In this document: positions 5,984-18,225 of the stretch, in pieces
Position numbering within the stretch: the stretch's first letter is position 1
Layout of the letters: each line of letters opens with the position of its first letter
NCBI RefSeq assembly: GCF_030691135.1
Contig: NZ_JAUYFA010000011.1
Location: forward strand, 1 to 64,000
Source: Phreatobacter sp.
GTDB taxonomy: Bacteria > Pseudomonadota > Alphaproteobacteria > Rhizobiales > Phreatobacteraceae
Direction of reading: 5' to 3'
Length of the DNA stretch: 64,000 bases
Made by a program: the position numbers and the translations under genes
The notes under the pieces: model-generated
The model's input: only the letters and a program-made list of their open reading frames with translations
The model's database searches: none
Told to the model about the DNA's origin: nothing

Positions 5984-6304
5984 TCAGCCCTGGCGCTCGG
6001 GGGTGTGGATGATCAGCCCGTTCATGGCATCCGTGACCTTGATCTGGCATGACAGGCGCGACGTCGGCTTCACGTCGAAGGCGAAATCGAGCATGTCCTC
6101 CTCCATGTGGGAGGGCTCGCCGGTCGCCGCCTTCCAGGCATCGTCGACATAGACGTGGCAGGTGGCGCAGGCGCAGGCGCCGCCGCATTCGGCGACGATG
6201 CCGGGAATGCCGTTCTTGATGGCGGCTTCCATGACGGTGGCGCCGCTGGCGGCTTCAACCGGTCGCTTCTCGCCGCTGTGGTCGATGAAGATGATCTGAG
6301 GCAT
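5984..6304 (-). CDS. 2Fe-2S ferredoxin, adrenodoxin/putidaredoxin type
   Basis: 106 residues, the full length of a vertebrate-type ferredoxin. Cluster ligands are visible as C40-x5-C46-x2-C49 and a distant C86 in LSCQIKV; C44 is an additional cysteine. The N-terminal [15 protein letters not shown] beta hairpin and the C-terminal IIHTPERQG fit the family. It transfers single electrons in the cytoplasm, usually between a ferredoxin reductase and a cytochrome P450 or Rieske-type oxygenase, or in Fe-S biogenesis. No P450 or reductase lies beside it here. The strong start is at 6302-6304. Confidence 0.93.
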
Positions 6305-6471: not shown

Positions 6472-6840
6472 TCAGGCGGCGCGCAGCAGCGTCGAGATGA
6501 AGCCGTTGGCCTCGTTCACCGCGTTTTCGAGGCGCGCCAGATCGTCCCAGGCGCGGGAGGAGAGATGGTCGACCTGATCGCATTCGACCGCCTCGGCGGC
6601 CTGGGCCACTCCGAAGGCGCCGATGCCCAGCGCCGAGCCCTTCAGCGTATGGGCCGCTTCCGCCCAGGTCTTGGCGTTGGTGGCGTTGCGCAGCCGCTCC
6701 AGCATGGTGCGCGACTGGCGCTCGAAGAGCACCAGAACCTCGCGCTCCAGATCGTGGTCGCCGAATGTCTGCCGCGACAGATGAGTGAGATCGACGGGCA
6801 GGCTGCTGCCCAGAAATTCGTCCGACATGATACGTGCCAT
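6472..6840 (-). CDS. Hpt domain-containing phosphotransfer protein
   Basis: 122 residues forming a single four-helix Hpt domain. The phosphorylatable histidine is H64 in AAHTLKGSALGIGAF, a canonical HxxKGSA motif. The protein is free-standing, with no attached kinase or receiver domain and no two-component gene nearby. Start taken at 6838-6840 (MARIMSDEFL), with a GGGGA about 11 bases upstream; MSDEFL at 6826-6828 is the alternative. Free Hpt proteins shuttle phosphate between hybrid kinases and response regulators, as ChpT-like or HptB proteins do, but this one is too short to be ChpT. Its partners are unknown. Confidence 0.87.
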   Translation of the reverse strand: MARIMSDEFLGSSLPVDLTHLSRQTFGDHDLEREVLVLFERQSRTMLERLRNATNAKTWAEAAHTLKGSALGIGAFGVAQAAEAVECDQVDHLSSRAWDDLARLENAVNEANGFISTLLRAA

Positions 6841-7879: not shown

Positions 7880-8055
7880 CGATGAATCGGAAACTGCGGC
7901 TCCGACAGGTTTCAATCCTTAGGACCCCCCGGTAGATTACATGCTGCGGCGGACTGTTGTCTGCCATCCGTGTTCGATGCGGCCAAGAGGCACTTGGGGC
8001 GCATCGTTGCGGGTGGATGCAGGACGGTCGGCAGTCAAAGGATGCGGGCGACACC

Positions 8056-11000
8056 ATGGCGAACACTCCCAAGAAGGCGCAGGATCCGGCCGAAGCGGCC
8101 CTTGCAGCCATCCAGGACGCACTGAATCTGGCCAGCGAGGACCAGACCAAGGCGTCGGTGCGGACGACTGGACGCGATGCGGGATCGCGCCAGTCGAGCG
8201 AGGCGATGCGGGTCGACGAGGATCTCTTCGCCGATACGCGCCGCTCCGACCAGGTGATCTCGCCCTCGCAGCCACCGGCCAACGACGACCGCCGCGATCT
8301 CGCCCAGATGCTCGAGCGCCTGTCGCGCCGCCCCTCGGCAGCCCCGCTGTGGACCGCCGCGCTGCTGTCCATCGGCTGGCTCGGCGCGGGCCTCGTCATC
8401 GCCTCGCGGCTCTACGACAACACCCTGCCGGATCCCTATTCCCCGCAGACGCTGACGCTCGCGGCGGTGCTGCTGCTCCCCGTCATGTTCTTCTTCGTCA
8501 TGGGCGCCCTGATCCGCCGCTCCCAGGAAATGCGCATTGTCGCCCAGGGCATGAGCGAGGTCGCGCTGCGGCTCGCCGAGCCCGAGACGGTGGCGCGCGA
8601 GGCCGTGGTCTCGGTCGGCCAGGCCATCCGCCGCGAGGTCGCCGCCATGGGTGACGGCGTCGAGCGGGCGCTGGCGCGGGCCGGCGAGCTCGAGACGCTC
8701 GTCCACAATGAGGTCGCCTCGCTCGAGCGCGCCTACAGCGACAACGAACTGCGCGTGCGCTCGCTCATCGAGGAACTGGTCACCCAGCGCGAGGCCATCG
8801 TTTCCAATGCCGAGCGCGTGCGCGCCTCGATGACCGGCGTTCACGAGCAGGTCGCCAACCAGATCGCCGATGCCGGCGATCAGCTCGCGCGACGCATCGA
8901 CGAATCCGGCATGCGCGTCACCTCCTCGCTCGGCGAGAAGGCCGAAGCCATCACCATGGCGCTCGGCCGGGCCGGCGACACCATGATCGACCAGATCCAG
9001 CTGCGCGGTTCCGACATCGTCGACCGCCTCGCCTCCACCAGCGACGAGGTCACCCGCGCCCTGTCGACGACCGGCGACCGCGTCACCTCGGTTCTGACCG
9101 ATACCGGCAACATCGTCACCGTGACCATGGCCGAGACCGGCACCAGTATGGCGGCGAAGCTGTCCGAGACCGGCACGGCGATGACCCACCACCTGGCCCT
9201 GACCAGCACCGAGATCACCCAGGCCATCGCCTCGCGGTCGGACGACGTGTCGGCCCGCCTGAAGGAGACCGGCGAAAGCCTGGTGGCCGAGCTCACCGCC
9301 CGCACCGGCGAAGTGTCGGAGACGCTGCGCTCGACCGGCGAGACGCTGATCTCCGAACTCGCCGCCCGCAGCGGTGAGGTGTCCTCGACCCTGCGCGAGA
9401 CGGGCGATGCGCTGATCGCCGAAATGTCGGACCGCGGCGGCTTCGTCACCTCGACTCTCAAGGAGACCGGCGAGAGCATCATCACGGAACTGTCGACGCG
9501 CGGCGACTATGTTGCCTCGACCCTGCGCGACACCGGCGAGAACCTCATCGTCGAGCTGTCGACCCGCGGTGGAGAGGTCACCACCACCCTGCGCGAGACC
9601 GGCGAGGCCTTCGTCTCCGAACTGACGCTGCGCGGCAACGAGGTCACCAGCCGCCTGAAGGATACCGGCGAGAGCCTCGTCTATGAACTGTCCAGCCGCG
9701 GCGGCGAGGTCAATTCGGTGCTGAAGTCGACGGCCGAGACCCTGGTCTACGAGCTGGCGACCCGCGGCGGCGAGGTCACCACCACCCTGCGCGAAACCGG
9801 CGAGGCGTTCGTCTCCGAACTGTCGCTTCGCGGCAACGAGGTCACGACGCGCCTGCGCGACACCGGCGAGCGCCTGGTCGGCGAACTCACCGAGCGCGGC
9901 TCGGAGGTCGTCAACAAGCTCGACTCCACCGGCAGCTACGTCGCCGAGACCATCACCGTGCGCGGCGGCGCCCTCGCCGACCGCATCGCCGAGACCGGCG
10001 ACAAGCTCCACCAGACCGTCACCACCCATGGCGACGAGCTCGACAAGCGCCTGGCCGTTACCGGCCAGCTCATCGCCGAGGCCATCACCCAGCGCACCGC
10101 GGAAGCCAAGAACGCCATCGGCGACGTCGGCATCCAGGTCGTCGAAAGCCTCACCGAGAAGGCCCAGGACGTGCAGCTCGCCCTGCGTCGGGCGAGCGAG
10201 ACCGTCACCACCGCCATTTCCGAGCGCACCGCCAGTCTGCGCGAGGAGATCGAGCTCGCCGGCACCGACGTGCTGTCGACCTTCGCCACCCAGGGCACAG
10301 ACCTCACCCAGCGCATCGGCGACATCGGCGCGCAGGTCACCAACGCCCTCGCCGCCCGCGGCGACGAGGTCACCAGCCAGTTGCAGCGCGTCGCCGGAGA
10401 GATCACCGAGACCGCCACCGCGCACGGCGAGGCCGTGGTCACCCGTATCGCCCAGAACGTCGTGGCACTCGACGACGCCATCAACCGGCACACGTCCGGC
10501 TTCGAGACCAGCGTCGCCTCCCATGCGACGCATCTCGAGGACGCCATCGGCCGCTACACCAGCCACTTCGAGAGCCGCGTCGCCGCCCATACATCGGGCC
10601 TCGAGGACGCGTTCGGCCGCTATACCAACGGCTTCGAGACACGGATGGGCGAACAGGCCGCCCATCTCGAGGATGCGTTCATCCGCTACACCTCCGGCTT
10701 CGACACGCGCATCAACCAGCATGCCGTGAACCTGGAGGACGTCATCGTCCGCCACACCTCGCATTTCGAGGGCCGCGTCGGCCATTACGCGACGACGCTC
10801 GACGAGACGATGGGCCGCCACACCGCGCAGTTCGAGGGCCGCGTCGGCCATTACGCTACGACGCTCGACGAGACGATGGGCCGCCACACCGCGCAATTCG
10901 AGGGCCGCGTGTCACAGCACGCCAGCGGTCTCGACGAGGCCATATTGCGCCACACCGCCTCGTTCGAGGGCCGGGTCGCGCATTATGCGACGACGCTGGA

Positions 11001-14000
11001 AGATTCGGTCGGCCGCCATGCCGTCAATCTCGAGGATGCGGTGAGCCGCCTCACCGGCGATTTCGAGAGCCGCGTCGGCTCACATGCCTCGATGCTGACC
11101 GAGCAGGTCGCCAACCATACTGCCCTCCTCGACCACAAGCTGTCCGGCCACATTTCCGCTCTCGACGAGACGATCTCCGGCAAGGGTATCGCCCTCGCCG
11201 ACCGGATCGCCGGAGATGCACGGGAATTCGCCGAGCGGGTGGCCCAGCAGTCGGGCCAGATCACCGACGCCCTCGACGGGCGCCTCGCCCGCATCGACCA
11301 GGCGCTCGACACCCGTGCCCAGGCGTTCAACGAGACGCTCGCCAGCCGCACGCTCGAACTCGCCAAGGTTCTCGGCGAGGGTGGCAAGGCGGTGACCGAA
11401 GCGCTGGAGAACAAGTCGGCGGAGATCACCTTCAACCTGACGTCGAAGTCGGACGAAATCACCCATACGCTGACCTCGAAGTCCGACGAGATCGCCTCGA
11501 ACCTCACCTCCAAGTCGGACGAACTGGCCCGCCTCCTGAACGACAAGTCGGACCAGATCGTCTTCAACCTGACCTCGCGTTCCGAGGAGATGGCGCGCAA
11601 CCTCGCCTCGACCTCCGAGGACATCGCACAGAACCTCGCGGCCCGCTCCGAGGACATCACCCGCATCCTCTCCGACAAGTCGGCGGACGTGACCTACACG
11701 CTCGCTTCGAAGTCGGGCGAGATCACGCGCCTCCTCACCGACAAGTCGGAGGAAGTGGCCTATTCGCTGACAGCCAAGTCCGAGGAGATCACCCGCCTCC
11801 TCAGCGAGAAGTCGGACGAGGTCACCTACACGCTCACCGCCAAGTCCGACCTCATCACCGCGACGCTGTCGGACAAGGTAGACCAGATCAACCGCACGCT
11901 CGGCGGTCGGGCGCTTGAAGTGGCCGAGACGCTCGACACCCGCGTCGCCCGCTTCGAGGAGGTCGTCGTCGGCCGGCTCGAATCGGTCTCGCAGACCCTC
12001 GATGCCCGCGGCTCGCACATCGCCGAAACGCTCACCGAGAAGGTCGAGACGGTCACCCAGACGCTGCGCACCAATGTCGACGATGTGGAGCGCACGCTGT
12101 CGACGATCTCGAACGACATCACTCAGGGCCTGTCCATACGCGTCGCCGAGATCAACGCCGTCCTCGGCGCCCGCTCGGCCGAGCTCGCCTCGCTCCTCGA
12201 CGATCGCGGCAGCAATCTCATTACCCGCCTCGGCGACAACGGTATGCAGATCACCAACGAGGTCAGCCGCGTCGGCGACATCGTGGTGCGTGCGCTGGAG
12301 AACCGCGGCGGCGCCATCACCGAGGTCATCGGCCAGAAGGGTGCGGAGATCACCCGCGTCCTGTCGCAGACCGGTATCGACGTGACGCGCGGCATCTCCG
12401 ATTCAAGCGAACAGGCTGCCCGCATCCTGTCGGAAAGCTCGGAACTGCTGCGCAACCGGATCGAAACGGACACCCGCGAATCGGTGCTCGCCCTTACCTC
12501 GACCAACGATCAGCTGAGGGGCGAGATCGCCTCGGTCCTCGCCCGCCTCGGCGAGACCAACGGCTCGATCCGGGACGTCGCGGCCCAGACCGAGCAGTCG
12601 CTGGCGGCGATCAACAATCAGCTCGGCGAACGGATCGGCCAGTTCGCATCCTCGGCCGAGACGGCGTCCACCGCGGCCGAAACCTCGACCCGGATGCTCA
12701 ACGGCCAGATCGGCCAGCTGACCAATGTCGCCGGCACGGTGCTGCGCGACGTCTCGTCGCTGACCGAGCGCTTCGACAACCAGGCGCGGCTCCTCGGGGC
12801 GGCGGCGGAGCAGGTCGAGGAGATGCAGCAGCGTCTCGACGCCTCCTTCGATACGCGCCGCGAGGTCATCGAGGCGCTGGTCCACCACCTCGCCTCCAAG
12901 ACCGAGGACATGGACAATCTGGTGAAGAGCTTCACCGGCCTTCTCGACGACAATCTCGGCGCCGCCGAGGGCCGCGCCCGCGAAATTGGCCGCGTCCTGG
13001 TCGAGTCGACCAACCAGACGACGCAGGCGATCGGCGAGCAGGCGGAGACGCTGCGCCTCGCCACGGGCAAGGAGCGCGAGCGCACCACCCACGCCATGCG
13101 CTCGGCCTACGAGCAGGCGACGCACGAAATGCACGCTCTGTTCCGCGAAGCCGCCGAGCGTTTCGAGACCCTGACCTCGGGCATGAAGGCGATGAGCAGC
13201 GAGATCCAGCGGGAACTCGCCGAAACGCGGGACCAGCTGTCGCGCGGCATGATCGAGATCCCGAAGGAGACGCAGGAAAACGCCGCCGCGATGCGGCGCG
13301 TCGTGGCCGACCAGATCAAGGCTCTGGCCGAACTGAACGACATCGTCGCCAAGTCCGGACGCGCCTTCGACGTCACCGAGCCCTCCCCGGCAGCGCCCCG
13401 TCGCGTCGTCCGCGAGGAAACACCGCTGCCGCTGCGTGGTGCCGTCGCCGACCTGCCGCGGCCGGAAGAGCGCCCTGAGCCGGTGCGCGAGGCCCCCAAG
13501 GCCCGCATCGCCGAGCCGCGGACGCCTGAGCCGCGCTCCGTCGAACCGCGACGCGAGGCCCCGGCCCGCGCCGAGGCGCCGAAGGCCGCCGACCGCTCCG
13601 GCGGCTGGCTGTCGGACCTTCTCGCCAGAGCCTCCACCGAGGACCAGGCCGGGCAGCCGATGCGTCCGGCGCAGCGCCGCACCCCTGCCCCGGCCGCACT
13701 CGACAATCTCGATGCGCTGTCGTCCGACATCGCGCGGATGGTGGATCATGATGCCGTCGCCGACCTCTGGGACCGCTGGCGCCGGGGCGAGAGGAACGTC
13801 TTCTCGCGCCGCCTCTACACGACCCAGGGCCAGCAAACCTTCGACGAGTTGCGTCGCCGCTATCGCCGCGACGCGGATTTCCGCGAGACCGTCGACCGCT
13901 ATGTCGACGAGTTCCAGCGGCTCCTCGCCGACGTGGACCGCAACGACCGCGACGGGTCGCTGGCCAAGTCCTACCTGACCTCGGAGACCGGCAAGGTGTT

Positions 14001-14037
14001 CACCCTCCTCGCCCATGCGAGCGGCCGTTTCGACTGA
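8056..14037 (+). CDS. Giant coiled-coil repeat membrane protein, growth pole ring (GPR/RgsE)-like
   Basis: About 1993 residues. A charged cytoplasmic N-terminus is followed by two TM helices at ~96-120 (WTAALLSIGWLGAGLVIAS) and ~133-156, then more than 1700 residues of almost pure helix. Three blocks of repeats are visible: 22-residue units of the ETGExLxxELxxRGGEVTTTLR type (~340-645), 22-residue units with GRHTxxFExRVxxHAxxLED (~812-1015), and 11-residue units of the LTSKSDEITxx type (~1120-1280). A Pro/Arg/Glu-rich linker (~1775-1850) leads to a conserved-looking C-terminal domain (ARMVDHDAVADLWDRWRRG onward). Size, two N-terminal TMs and apolipoprotein-like repeats match Agrobacterium GPR (about 2100 residues), a polar growth scaffold. 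Start at 8056 (MANTPKKAQ); longer in-frame starts at 7957 or 8017 are possible. Identification is by architecture, not alignment. Confidence 0.8.
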   Translation: MANTPKKAQDPAEAALAAIQDALNLASEDQTKASVRTTGRDAGSRQSSEAMRVDEDLFADTRRSDQVISPSQPPANDDRRDLAQMLERLSRRPSAAPLWTAALLSIGWLGAGLVIASRLYDNTLPDPYSPQTLTLAAVLLLPVMFFFVMGALIRRSQEMRIVAQGMSEVALRLAEPETVAREAVVSVGQAIRREVAAMGDGVERALARAGELETLVHNEVASLERAYSDNELRVRSLIEELVTQREAIVSNAERVRASMTGVHEQVANQIADAGDQLARRIDESGMRVTSSLGEKAEAITMALGRAGDTMIDQIQLRGSDIVDRLASTSDEVTRALSTTGDRVTSVLTDTGNIVTVTMAETGTSMAAKLSETGTAMTHHLALTSTEITQAIASRSDDVSARLKETGESLVAELTARTGEVSETLRSTGETLISELAARSGEVSSTLRETGDALIAEMSDRGGFVTSTLKETGESIITELSTRGDYVASTLRDTGENLIVELSTRGGEVTTTLRETGEAFVSELTLRGNEVTSRLKDTGESLVYELSSRGGEVNSVLKSTAETLVYELATRGGEVTTTLRETGEAFVSELSLRGNEVTTRLRDTGERLVGELTERGSEVVNKLDSTGSYVAETITVRGGALADRIAETGDKLHQTVTTHGDELDKRLAVTGQLIAEAITQRTAEAKNAIGDVGIQVVESLTEKAQDVQLALRRASETVTTAISERTASLREEIELAGTDVLSTFATQGTDLTQRIGDIGAQVTNALAARGDEVTSQLQRVAGEITETATAHGEAVVTRIAQNVVALDDAINRHTSGFETSVASHATHLEDAIGRYTSHFESRVAAHTSGLEDAFGRYTNGFETRMGEQAAHLEDAFIRYTSGFDTRINQHAVNLEDVIVRHTSHFEGRVGHYATTLDETMGRHTAQFEGRVGHYATTLDETMGRHTAQFEGRVSQHASGLDEAILRHTASFEGRVAHYATTLEDSVGRHAVNLEDAVSRLTGDFESRVGSHASMLTEQVANHTALLDHKLSGHISALDETISGKGIALADRIAGDAREFAERVAQQSGQITDALDGRLARIDQALDTRAQAFNETLASRTLELAKVLGEGGKAVTEALENKSAEITFNLTSKSDEITHTLTSKSDEIASNLTSKSDELARLLNDKSDQIVFNLTSRSEEMARNLASTSEDIAQNLAARSEDITRILSDKSADVTYTLASKSGEITRLLTDKSEEVAYSLTAKSEEITRLLSEKSDEVTYTLTAKSDLITATLSDKVDQINRTLGGRALEVAETLDTRVARFEEVVVGRLESVSQTLDARGSHIAETLTEKVETVTQTLRTNVDDVERTLSTISNDITQGLSIRVAEINAVLGARSAELASLLDDRGSNLITRLGDNGMQITNEVSRVGDIVVRALENRGGAITEVIGQKGAEITRVLSQTGIDVTRGISDSSEQAARILSESSELLRNRIETDTRESVLALTSTNDQLRGEIASVLARLGETNGSIRDVAAQTEQSLAAINNQLGERIGQFASSAETASTAAETSTRMLNGQIGQLTNVAGTVLRDVSSLTERFDNQARLLGAAAEQVEEMQQRLDASFDTRREVIEALVHHLASKTEDMDNLVKSFTGLLDDNLGAAEGRAREIGRVLVESTNQTTQAIGEQAETLRLATGKERERTTHAMRSAYEQATHEMHALFREAAERFETLTSGMKAMSSEIQRELAETRDQLSRGMIEIPKETQENAAAMRRVVADQIKALAELNDIVAKSGRAFDVTEPSPAAPRRVVREETPLPLRGAVADLPRPEERPEPVREAPKARIAEPRTPEPRSVEPRREAPARAEAPKAADRSGGWLSDLLARASTEDQAGQPMRPAQRRTPAPAALDNLDALSSDIARMVDHDAVADLWDRWRRGERNVFSRRLYTTQGQQTFDELRRRYRRDADFRETVDRYVDEFQRLLADVDRNDRDGSLAKSYLTSETGKVFTLLAHASGRFD
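10765..10896 (+). repeat. Near-identical 66-bp tandem duplication inside the GPR-like gene
   Basis: Two adjacent 66-bp units, 10765-10830 and 10831-10896, differ at only two synonymous positions (gcg/gct and cag/caa). They encode two copies of the same 22-residue repeat. Neighbouring units in the same block are far more diverged, so this looks like a recent unit duplication. Confidence 0.9.
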
Positions 14038-14144: not shown

Positions 14145-14771
14145 TCAGACCTGGCCGGTCGACCAGAGCACGATCTCGCGCAACAGGCTCTGCACGGCGC
14201 CGTTGAAGGCGGCGGAGACGCTGATCGCGTCGGTGCCGGCAGCCGGCGCGCGTGCCGAGAACACCCGGCCGGAAAGGATGCGTCCCGAGCGGTCGTTGAC
14301 GATCTTTACGGACATCTCGACCACCACTTCGCTGGCGCCGGTGACGACGACTTCGAAGGCGCGGACTTCCGCCAGCAACTGCCAGTCGGATGCCAGCCGG
14401 TCGCCGGGGCGACCGACCGAACGCAGGCGGTTTGCGTTCTCGAAGGACTGGATGAGCCGCGCCTGCAGGAGCTTGGGCAGACGGTCGGCCCAGGCGCCGT
14501 CGGTCAGGTAGGAATAGGCGCCGCCGGGACCGCGCACCGCGATGCGCTCGGTGTCGAGGCTGGCGATGGCCTTGGGCTCGACGACGAGCAACTGGCCGCG
14601 GACGGCGCCGGCCAGTGTCGGGAAGGTCGACGGGGCGGAAATGTCGAAGCTGCGGGGAACGCTGGACGATGACGCACAACCGGCGAGGGCAAGGGCTACC
14701 GCCAAGGTCGCGGCAAGCGCCGCCGACCGCCCTGCCCGCCTCGATCCCGTCACGTCGTCGTTGTGCTGCAC
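14145..14771 (-). CDS. ABC-type transport auxiliary lipoprotein (PqiC/ABC_trans_aux-like)
   Basis: 208 residues. A signal peptide ends in a lipobox LALAGCASSS, so the mature protein is probably a lipid-anchored periplasmic protein. The body (SFDISAPSTFP, LLVVEPKAIASLDTERIAV, then WADRLPKLLQARLIQSFEN) matches the ABC_trans_aux/PqiC family that accompanies MCE transporters. It starts with GTG at 14769-14771, 21 bp after the mlaD-like gene, and is the last gene of the four-gene Mla-type operon. It presumably helps move phospholipid between the inner and outer membranes. Confidence 0.85.
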   Translation of the reverse strand: MQHNDDVTGSRRAGRSAALAATLAVALALAGCASSSSVPRSFDISAPSTFPTLAGAVRGQLLVVEPKAIASLDTERIAVRGPGGAYSYLTDGAWADRLPKLLQARLIQSFENANRLRSVGRPGDRLASDWQLLAEVRAFEVVVTGASEVVVEMSVKIVNDRSGRILSGRVFSARAPAAGTDAISVSAAFNGAVQSLLREIVLWSTGQV

Positions 14772-14792
14772 GCCCGAACCTTCAGTTTCGCC

Positions 14793-16130
14793 CTAGCGGC
14801 GATTGTATTCGGGCACGCCCGACCCGCCGAAGATGAACCGCTGCGGGTTGCGCTCCAGCGAGCGCAGGGTCCGTTCGAGTTCCGTCAGCGTCCGCCGACC
14901 ATCGGTCGACAGAGATTGAATATCGCGGATCGTCCGATCCGTGAAGCCGGAGATCGACGTCGTCAGTTGCGCCGTCCGGGTATCGAGCCGTTCGGCGAGC
15001 GTGCGCACCGATCGCGCGGTCGCAGTGAATTCGGCGAACATATTGTTGGTTCCATCGCCGGCGAAGCTCTTCAGCAGCCCGTCGATCCGGTCGGCCATGG
15101 CGTTGAGCTTGCCGGAGACCTCGCCGGCATTTTTCAGGAGCAGGTCGACATTGGCGGAATTGTCGCCGAGCGTCTGGGTGAAGCGATCGATATTGGCCAT
15201 GGCCCGGCCGATGCGTTCGCTGTCGAGGGACTCGATCACGCGATCGGCGCCGACGAGCGTACGGTTCAGGGCGCGCACGTCGAAGGTGGTCGCGACCTCG
15301 TTGACGGTTCCGAGCGTCTGGGTCAGCGAACTGGCGGCCTGGCGCGCGTCACGCAGGAGATCGGCGAAGCTCTGGCTCTGCGCGTTCAGGCCGGCGGTCA
15401 ACTCGTCGACATTGCGCAGGATCGAGGTGATCCGGCCCGGCTGGGCGCCCTCCATCATGCCTTCGATCTGCGTCGTGACCCTGTCGAGCCGCTGGGCGAG
15501 GGCTGCGATCTGCCGGGCCGCCTCGCCGGTCTGGCTGAGGAAGTTGCGGACATTGTCGGTGTTGTCGCCGAGCGCCGCGGTGAACCTCTCGACATTCTCG
15601 AGGCTGCGCTGGAACGAACCCTGGCCGCTGGCGATGACGCCGTCGAGGCGGTTCACGAGCCCGTTCAGCGTGTTCATCGTCTGCTGGGCGCCGGACATGA
15701 TGTCGGAGCCGCCCGGCACGTCGGGGCCGATCTGCGGCGGCGGCGCGCCCGCCGCGCGGGTCAGCGGCTGGGCGACGTCGGGTCCGTTAGCGAGGCCGAC
15801 CGAGGCGATCCCCGACAGCAGCTGGACGTTGAGGGTGGCGCGGGTGGCCGAGGAGACCGGCGTCCCCGGCTGGAGGGCGACGACGGCGACCACCTTGCGC
15901 GGATCGTCACGGTCGATGTCGATGCGCCGGACCTCGCCCCTGCGGATGCCGTTGAAGAAGACCGCCGAACCGGTGCGCAGGCCGCCGACCGGCCCGGTGA
16001 AGACAATGCGGAAATCCTCGCGGTTGCTGCTGTCGCCGACGCGCAGGAACCACCACAGGAACAGGCCGAATGCCGCCAGCATGCCCAGCGTGAACAGGCC
16101 GATCAGCGTCGTGTTGGCCTTTGTTTCCAT
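14793..16130 (-). CDS. mlaD: MlaD family protein (MCE domain), phospholipid transporter substrate-binding subunit
   Basis: 445 residues. A single N-terminal TM helix (LIGLFTLGMLAAFGLFLWWF) is followed by an MCE domain: FRIVFTGPVGGLRTGSAVFF and VRRIDIDRDDPRKVVAVVAL. A long helical C-terminal region of about 280 residues is rich in Q, T and L and holds repeated LAQRLDRVTTQ/IDRFTQTLGDN-like segments. The long tail matches the larger MlaD/TTG2C-type proteins of alphaproteobacteria rather than the short E. coli MlaD. Start at METKANTTLIG (16128-16130). It stands 19 bp downstream of the ATPase gene. The protein forms the periplasmic ring of an ABC lipid transporter. Confidence 0.9.
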   Translation of the reverse strand: METKANTTLIGLFTLGMLAAFGLFLWWFLRVGDSSNREDFRIVFTGPVGGLRTGSAVFFNGIRRGEVRRIDIDRDDPRKVVAVVALQPGTPVSSATRATLNVQLLSGIASVGLANGPDVAQPLTRAAGAPPPQIGPDVPGGSDIMSGAQQTMNTLNGLVNRLDGVIASGQGSFQRSLENVERFTAALGDNTDNVRNFLSQTGEAARQIAALAQRLDRVTTQIEGMMEGAQPGRITSILRNVDELTAGLNAQSQSFADLLRDARQAASSLTQTLGTVNEVATTFDVRALNRTLVGADRVIESLDSERIGRAMANIDRFTQTLGDNSANVDLLLKNAGEVSGKLNAMADRIDGLLKSFAGDGTNNMFAEFTATARSVRTLAERLDTRTAQLTTSISGFTDRTIRDIQSLSTDGRRTLTELERTLRSLERNPQRFIFGGSGVPEYNRR

Positions 16131-16149
16131 GCGCCTGGGCTCACATCCT

Positions 16150-16929
16150 TCACGCCTTGACCCGGGCGGCACGGGCGCGTTCGCCGCCGAAATACTTTTT
16201 CAGCCAGGGATGTGGATGGCGGAGCATGTCCTCCATCGTCCCCGTTGCGATGACCTTGCCGTCAGCGAGTGCCGCGATGCGATCGCAGATTCGCGCCAGA
16301 CTATCGAGATCGTGCGTGACCATATACACCGTCAGGCCCAGAGTGTCGCGTAACGTCCTGATGAGCGTGTCGAATTCCTCGGCGCCGATCGGGTCGAGGC
16401 CGGAGGTCGGCTCGTCGAGGAAGACGATCTCCGGATCGAGGGCGAGCGCACGGGCCAGCGCGGCGCGCTTGATCATGCCGCCGGAGAGCTCGGAAGGGTA
16501 TTTGTCGGCGGCATCGGCCCTGAGGCCGACCATGGCGATCTTCAGCCGCGCGATCTCGTCCATCAGCGGCTCGGACAGCTTCAGATATTCGCGCAGCGGC
16601 ACCTGAATGTTCTGTTTCACCGTCAGCGAGGAGAACAGCGCGCCGTGCTGAAACAGCACGCCCCAGCGCCGTTCGATCGCCTTGTGCTCGGCGCGGGAGA
16701 GCGTGTCGAGGTCCTGATCGAAGACGGTGATCTTGCCGCGGCGCTTCGGCACGAGGCCGATGATGCAGCGGGTCAGGACCGACTTGCCGGTGCCCGAGCC
16801 GCCGACGACGCCCAGTACCTCGCCGGCATGGACGTCGAGGTCGAGGCCGTCGATGATCAGGCGCTCGCCGAAGCCTATGGCGACGTCGCGGACCGAGATG
16901 ATGATGTCGCCGCTCGCATAATCTGCCAC
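16150..16929 (-). CDS. mlaF: ABC transporter ATP-binding protein, MlaF type
   Basis: 259 residues, a complete nucleotide-binding domain. Walker A is GGSGTGKS, the signature is LSGGMIKRAALARAL and Walker B is IVFLDEPTSGLDP, with the H-loop in VYMVTHDLDSL. The methionine-containing LSGGM signature and GLVPKRRGKITVF are typical of MlaF/TTG2A. It energises the transporter formed with the STAS-permease upstream and the MCE protein downstream. The gap to the permease gene is only 15 bp. Confidence 0.93.
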   Translation of the reverse strand: MADYASGDIIISVRDVAIGFGERLIIDGLDLDVHAGEVLGVVGGSGTGKSVLTRCIIGLVPKRRGKITVFDQDLDTLSRAEHKAIERRWGVLFQHGALFSSLTVKQNIQVPLREYLKLSEPLMDEIARLKIAMVGLRADAADKYPSELSGGMIKRAALARALALDPEIVFLDEPTSGLDPIGAEEFDTLIRTLRDTLGLTVYMVTHDLDSLARICDRIAALADGKVIATGTMEDMLRHPHPWLKKYFGGERARAARVKA

Positions 16930-16944
16930 GTCAGCACCCTATCG

Positions 16945-18081
16945 TCAGTAGCCGAGACTGGCGAAGAAGATGGCGAAGAGACCGTCCAGGACGATCACCA
17001 GGAAGATCGCCTTCACCACGGAGGCGGTGGTCTGCTGGCCGAGGCTCTCCGCCGAGCCCTTGACCCGCATGCCCTCGATACAGGCGACCAGGCCGATGAT
17101 CAGCGCCATGAACGGCGCCTTGATGAGCCCCACCCAGATATGGCGCTGGGACACCTCTTCCTGCATGCGCGTGAAGAAGATGTCGATCGGGATCTGGCCG
17201 TAGAACTGCGCCACCACGGCGCCGCCCATGATGGCCGAGAGGTTGCCGATGAAGGTGAGGATCGGCAAGCCGAGCACCAGGGCCATGAGGCGCGGCAGGA
17301 CGAGCACCTCGACCGGATTCAGGCCCATGACCCTCAGCGCGTCGATTTCCTCGCGCATCTTCATCGAGCCAATCTCGGCAGTGAAGGCCGAGCCGGTGCG
17401 CCCCGCCACCATGATCGAGACGATCAACACGCCGATCTCGCGCAGGGTCAGGATGGCGACGAGGTCGACGACATAGGTGTCGGCGCCGAAATCGCGGAAG
17501 AAGAAGATGCCCTGCTGGGCGATGATCCCGCCGATCAGGAAGGTGATGAGTGCCATGATGGGCACCGCCCGGAACGCGACCCGGTCCAGCTGGTTGACCA
17601 CGGCGGCAAGGCGGAAACGGCCGACACCGGTGAAGATCGACCCGACAGCGGCGACGACCTCGCCGAAGAAGGAGACCAGCGCCACGAGGTCGCGGCCAGC
17701 TTCGACCATCTGCTCACCGACCTTGTCGAGCCCCTGGACGATGACAGGCTTGGGCTTCGCCGGTGTCGGCGCCGGCTCGGCGAGGCCGTCGGCGATCTCG
17801 GCATAGATGGCGGCGCCGGCCTTCGACAGCCCTTCCCGCTGCACCGGGATTCCGCGCGCGCCGAAGGCCATCTCGATCCCTCGCACCAGCGTGCCGCCAA
17901 GGGTGTCGAGGCGCTGGACGGCGGTGAAGTCGAGCAACACGCTCTGCGGCGAACCGCCTTCCGCGATGAGGCTGGCGACCCTGGGCTCCATGTCGCCCGC
18001 GGTTTCGGCGGTCCAGGTGCCGCCGAGCGCAACCGTCAGGCGGCTGCCGTCAACTCTGCTCGCCAGTTGGGCTTCAGGCAC
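16945..18081 (-). CDS. mlaE: MlaE family ABC permease with N-terminal STAS domain
   Basis: About 378 residues. The first ~95 residues form a STAS-like domain (VDGSRLTVALGGTWTAETA, SVLLDFTAVQRLDTLGG), the role played by separate MlaB in E. coli. The rest is an MlaE permease: FLIGGIIAQQGIFFF, LREIGVLIVSIMVAGRTGSAFTAEIG, and EIDALRVMGLNPVEVLVLPR, the family's hallmark coupling region. Start chosen at GTG 18079-18081 because AGGAAG lies six bases upstream; an in-frame GTG at 18142-18144 would add 21 residues. First gene of the operon STAS-permease, ATPase, MCE protein, lipoprotein. Confidence 0.9.
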   Translation of the reverse strand: MPEAQLASRVDGSRLTVALGGTWTAETAGDMEPRVASLIAEGGSPQSVLLDFTAVQRLDTLGGTLVRGIEMAFGARGIPVQREGLSKAGAAIYAEIADGLAEPAPTPAKPKPVIVQGLDKVGEQMVEAGRDLVALVSFFGEVVAAVGSIFTGVGRFRLAAVVNQLDRVAFRAVPIMALITFLIGGIIAQQGIFFFRDFGADTYVVDLVAILTLREIGVLIVSIMVAGRTGSAFTAEIGSMKMREEIDALRVMGLNPVEVLVLPRLMALVLGLPILTFIGNLSAIMGGAVVAQFYGQIPIDIFFTRMQEEVSQRHIWVGLIKAPFMALIIGLVACIEGMRVKGSAESLGQQTTASVVKAIFLVIVLDGLFAIFFASLGY

Positions 18082-18225
18082 GAGGCTCTTCCTGCTCACG
18101 GCCGCGATTTTCGATAAGTCGCATGCGCTGGTCCGGCTTGGCACACGCGCAAGGTCTCTGCATAAAGGAGCCGTCCGGCGCCGTCGAGGTCGCCGCCCCT
18201 CTCATTCTCCGCTGCAGGCCGCCTC

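Follow-up and report, generated by a model that had tools for sequence, protein, structure and literature searches.

We analyzed a 64,000-nucleotide stretch of Phreatobacter sp. DNA (hereafter the window), in which an open frame at 8056-14037 on the plus strand gives a stop-free translation of 1993 aa. A preliminary description, made from the letters of the sequence, had proposed a giant protein with two N-terminal transmembrane helices, three families of repeats and a separate C-terminal domain, and had taken it for the orthologue of Agrobacterium GPR and Sinorhizobium RgsE. Translation, homology and tree all place the frame with GPR/RgsE, and the protein shares the size and layout of this group, with about 2000 aa, two N-terminal transmembrane helices and a long helical rod (aa 245-1501).

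All parts of the protein are encoded on the plus strand. The N-terminal cytoplasmic segment (aa 1-96; 8056-8343) carries an ANDDRR motif that is conserved in orthologues. Hydropathy places the two transmembrane helices at aa 98-116 and 135-153 (8347-8514), and they are followed by a conserved juxtamembrane helix (aa 157-266; 8524-8853), which is found in one copy and free of indels in 96 of 96 orthologues. The continuous hendecad rod (8788-12558) leads into a conserved helical region (aa 1502-1740; 12559-13275) and a proline-rich linker (aa 1741-1846; 13276-13593). Behind the linker lies a GGWxxDLLxxAS motif in a predicted helix (13594-13641), which is also present in RgsE and in most relatives within the order. 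The C-terminal helical domain (C-domain; aa 1879-1993; 13690-14034) was confirmed as a separate, conserved unit of about 115 aa. It belongs to no Pfam family and occurs class-wide. For an AF2 model of this domain (mean pLDDT 74), Foldseek found nothing at E 0.001 (its best hit was at 0.26), and the highest Z from VIA-align was 4.0. A sequence search of the PDB revealed no convincing relative (best E 0.011), and a comparison with PHROGs gave no match.

Gene neighborhood

Upstream, a single-domain Hpt (histidine phosphotransfer) protein is encoded divergently (6472-6840, minus strand), together with a conserved 2Fe-2S ferredoxin (Fdx; 5984-6304, minus). Four convergent genes on the minus strand lie downstream, encoding a PqiC-like ABC auxiliary lipoprotein (PF03886; 14145-14771), an MlaD/MCE protein (14793-16172), an MlaF-like ABC ATPase (16150-16929) and an MlaE permease (16945-18144). 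Among 100 loci, 80 of which came from a Rhizobiaceae query and are not independent, the divergent Hpt gene adjoins GPR in 93 and the Fdx-Hpt-GPR order is kept in 91; the full PqiC-MlaDFE set then follows in 61. Within the 20 loci taken from the genus of the window and 14 other families, Hpt was found in 19, covering 13 of these 14 families. No Hpt was detected near GPR in L217 and L218, two short-rod genomes of the order that lack MreB. The Hpt neighbor carries an HTLKGS box and also adjoins the nearest short relatives outside the order; a limited literature search found no paper linking an Hpt protein to GPR. The PqiC-MlaD-MlaF-MlaE-type operon as a whole (14145-18144, minus) is convergent to GPR, an arrangement shared by many families and by the nearest outgroups.

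Repeat blocks and hendecad register of the rod

The preliminary description had recognized two repeat families of 22 residues and one of 11. Shift autocorrelation and TRF recovered all three. Block A consists of ten units of 22 aa (aa ~403-622; 9262-9921, plus), block B of nine units of 22 aa (aa ~799-996; 10450-11043, plus) and block C of an 11-aa unit with an equally strong signal at 22 (aa ~1107-1282; 11374-11901, plus). Identity at a shift of 22 or 11 was 0.49-0.57 in the blocks, compared to a shuffled maximum of 0.25, and TRF reported tandem units of 66 and 33 bp in the DNA. Using a PSSM scan with thresholds set on phase-shuffled rods, we found all three blocks in six congeners (6-11 copies of A, 1-11 of B and 5-11 of C). 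They were nearly absent elsewhere: among 14 proteins from other families, just two showed a single 22-aa match to block A each. All three blocks are thus specific to the genus of the window, as the earlier wording of lineage-specific blocks had implied.

The power of the rod peaked at period 3.67 with 21.9, against at most 1.9 in shuffles, and vanished at the heptad value; all three blocks fall within one hendecad register. A phase-tracking model revealed a single unslipped run of 1257 aa, from residue 245 to 1501 (0 in ten shuffles). Its stretch from aa 271 to 1480 contains 110 in-register repeats of 11, in which position 7 is occupied by ILVMF in 97% and position 11 in 99% of cases, while position 4 is AGST in 92%. 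Charged residues never occur at these three positions, and Pro, Cys and Trp are absent from all 1210 residues. This uninterrupted 11-residue hydrophobic pattern is the one expected at positions a, d and h of a hendecad coiled coil, here with position a taken by a small residue. Of the two structures raised in the preliminary description, we favor this 11-residue coiled coil over helices of the apolipoprotein type. AF2 modeling of aa 781-1130 (350 rod residues, no alignment) gave two long helices rather than short bundles, with one low-confidence break. We conclude that blocks A, B and C are homogenized stretches of one longer hendecad rod in a common register; their position inside a single continuous rod is new here. 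Antisense to the rod runs an open frame of 953 aa (8035-10896, minus), which probably arises as a side effect of the periodic, GC-rich codons.

Unslipped hendecad runs measured 180-1653 aa in a first set of relatives from the order, 77-612 aa in short-rod and MreB-positive families of the order that were added later, and 36-284 aa outside the order.

Relationship to GPR and RgsE

For the comparison with the known proteins, we used homologues from A. vitis, Agrobacterium sp. and S. meliloti 4H41 in place of the exact Atu1348 and SMc00190 entries. Similarity to the S. meliloti 4H41 homologue is present at both ends of the protein, with 41% identity over the N-terminal 270 aa (E 2e-60) and 52% over the C-terminal part (E 3e-51). 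The lack of terminal similarity that the preliminary description had named as refuting its reading was thus not seen. This homologue has 2094 aa and is the sole C-domain gene of its genome; RgsE is described with 2,089 aa and 42% identity to GPR (PMC7327166). The C-domain is single-copy in the genome of the window, in S. meliloti, in A. vitis and in Agrobacterium sp., and 284 of the 297 genomes from the order contain it. In the tree, the window protein and the Rhizobiaceae proteins fall into one clade. Termini, single-copy C-domain, gene order and tree hence agree on the proposed orthology. Two genomes of the order, L184 (genome G013) and L180 (genome G253), have a second, weaker C-domain match on another contig, where the open frame measures about 410-450 aa.

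GPR of Agrobacterium tumefaciens (Atu1348, 2115 aa; PMC8262873) likewise has two N-terminal transmembrane helices, a helix of about 1700 aa, a match to PF01442 and a Pro-rich region, and its C terminus is essential. The Agrobacterium homologues have the N-terminal anchor in common with the window protein at 64-65% and the C-domain at 62-63%, and their genes lie in the same Fdx-Hpt-GPR order. However, blocks A, B and C are missing from the two homologues examined, and their longest unslipped runs span 553 and 1004 aa compared to 1257 aa in the window protein. As judged from the 4H41 homologue, Sinorhizobium meliloti RgsE (SMc00190) has the same gene order and the GGWxxDLL motif, whereas its rod differs in sequence outside the hendecad pattern and has a longest run of 575 aa. 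Since Rhizobiaceae rods contain register slips, a perfect register is not universal. The protein is a new member of the known GPR/RgsE family, and we revise the interpretation of the rod.

What is known of the function comes from papers on relatives. Localization to the growing pole as a ring of foci, a need for polar growth, and depletion and deletion phenotypes have been reported (PMC8262873, PMC7327166, PMC9938171). Depletion leads to loss of rod shape, the C terminus is needed, and RgsA, RgsS and TolQ were identified as two-hybrid partners (PMC8262873, PMC7327166). The Brucella relative localizes to the new pole (PMC9938171).

The apolipoprotein match

The whole protein matches the Apolipoprotein A1/A4/E family (PF01442) at E 9.6e-75, and a match to this family is a feature of the GPR/RgsE group. 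GPR has been treated as an apolipoprotein and was modeled on apoA-IV with SWISS-MODEL (PMC8262873). We used the first 660 residues of the rod for a shuffle test, in which the residue composition of each of the 11 phases was kept and all else was randomized. The real piece scored 6.6e-39 and two phase-preserving shuffles scored 5.2e-41 and 7.5e-39, while a full shuffle of the same piece gave no PF01442 match. Phase-preserving shuffles score like the real rod and, consequently, the match carries nothing beyond 11-residue periodicity. Apolipoprotein homology was therefore rejected as evidence, because similarity beyond the 11-residue periodic composition was not found in this test. The match is explained by periodicity alone, an explanation that is new here; the rod may still bind lipid. 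Both kinds of protein have an 11/22-residue amphipathic periodicity in common, but the window rod is free of Pro. Matches to Zorya ZorA (NF033914, NF041792) were rejected, as they reached about 22 bits where the cut-offs are 190 and 700; the weak similarity to the helical rod (E ~4e-5) was treated as a coiled-coil cross-match. SpiroCoCo scored far below its cut-off and was likewise dismissed.

Length changes of the rod

The rods of close relatives change length in 11-residue steps, which is new here. Among nearest-neighbor pairs of orthologues with differing rod spans, 19 of 32 differ by a multiple of 11 (2.9 expected, p 1.8e-12), while differences in the post-rod and linker regions, taken as a control, were multiples of 11 in 0 of 37. 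For five of six spans in the genus, the difference from the window protein is a multiple of 11, and the spans range from 1098 to 1461 aa (163-216 nm). Deep lineages do not simply follow multiples of 11; other residues mod 11 occur, among them 4 and 7, which would fit stutters of one and two turns.

The extended GPR helix of 1700 residues has been put at 600 nm (PMC8262873). At the standard 0.15 nm per residue, 1700 helical residues correspond to about 255 nm, which is near the diameter of the ring, and the rods in the genus of the window are near the 200-nm ring as well. A small coiled-coil deletion in GPR with severe effects was considered as a register break; it is unusable as evidence because the paper gives its span variously as 20 residues, 413-433 and 413-434.

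Short relatives and the distribution of MreB

Across the class, the C-domain was found in 107 of 289 genomes, often in shorter proteins. Those examined carry hydrophobic segments at the N terminus, and their middle part is long and polar; the closest families outside the order (L152-L158) retain the divergent Hpt gene and the convergent PqiC-MlaDFE genes. Distant homologues in Emcibacterales and Rhodospirillales had already been noted (PMC7327166); the wider distribution extends those records, and the short class-wide relatives with the same C-domain are new here.

True MreB (E 1e-76 or better) was not found in the genus of the window, as expected for a polar grower; within the order it occurs in nine families, with 34 of 297 genomes positive. 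Using open frames as protein lengths, with some contigs fragmented, the MreB-bearing families of the order have a median protein of 915-1391 aa (maximum 1498), and 24 of 37 MreB-less families exceed 1500 aa (Mann-Whitney test at family level, p 8e-4). A tree built from the parts outside the repeats shows about two origins of long rods; with so few independent origins the association is not significant after phylogeny. The restriction of rods above 1500 aa to MreB-less families is thus suggestive only. Two MreB-bearing genomes of one family, L192 (genome G083) and L195 (genome G284), have GPR frames of just 452 and 484 aa, which are possibly frameshifted.

Discussion

We established orthology, gene neighborhood, the hendecad register and the 11-residue length steps. 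The protein is very probably (about 0.85) a GPR/RgsE orthologue that acts as an anchored, self-associating hendecad rod with a docking C-domain and organizes envelope synthesis at the growing pole. The two transmembrane helices would anchor it in the inner membrane, from where a single hendecad helix, about 1260 residues long and without interruption, would extend into the cytoplasm; at 0.148 nm per residue it would measure ~190 nm. The three blocks are presumably recently homogenized parts of it. We infer a coiled-coil oligomer: the rod would most likely self-associate via a narrow stripe formed by hendecad positions 4, 7 and 11, and the resulting coiled coil should be right-handed or nearly straight. 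Beyond the Pro-rich linker, the C-terminal helical domain may dock partners or neighboring subunits. The assembly could thereby organize envelope synthesis at the growing pole, and a polar function in this organism would follow that of its relatives.

Published thinking on the 200-nm GPR ring leans on the apolipoprotein annotation and on a 600-nm helix (PMC8262873). The hendecad reading undercuts the lipid-binding apolipoprotein view, and together with the length of about 255 nm the periodicity result replaces a loosely defined lipid scaffold by a hypothesis open to experiment, that of a long coiled-coil rod. A rod made of a string of true apolipoprotein A-IV-like domains, bundled and, in line with the proposal made for GPR, binding or sorting lipid at the pole, could draw on the strong PF01442 match, on the published apoA-IV model and on the PqiC-MlaDFE lipid-transport operon next to the gene. 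Yet two synthetic rods built from per-phase composition equal the real score, Pro is missing over 1210 residues, and the hydrophobic stripe covers 2-3 of 11 positions, which is narrow for a lipid-binding face. We regard such a rod as improbable.

We tentatively propose, at less than even odds, that GPR/RgsE is a membrane-anchored hendecad coiled-coil cable rather than an apolipoprotein, that the length of this cable evolves in 11-residue steps, that it derives from short class-wide alphaproteobacterial proteins encoded beside Hpt and an Mla-type lipid transporter, that it was greatly lengthened in MreB-less Rhizobiales, and that its length helps to set the geometry of the growth pole ring, a role for rod length that the preliminary description had raised. 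Neutral length, with repeats changing by unequal recombination or slippage and selection acting on register alone, has an even chance in our judgment; it is an alternative to length tuning of the ring and leaves the orthology untouched. Within one genus the spans vary widely and the copy numbers of the blocks vary freely, and DNA repeats of 66 and 33 bp would yield 11-residue steps by mutation alone; the confinement of long rods to MreB-less families speaks against neutrality, although it reflects only about two independent gains. The orthologue might also have a broader role in tethering or organizing the envelope in this lineage, instead of a role in polar growth. Besides the many C-domain relatives across the class, 24 of 25 tested C-domain genomes outside the order keep MreB, so that the original job of the family need not be polar growth, a point also made for distant homologues (PMC7327166). 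For the window protein itself we consider this unlikely, since its genus lacks MreB and the tree groups it with long-rod proteins from organisms known to grow at the pole.
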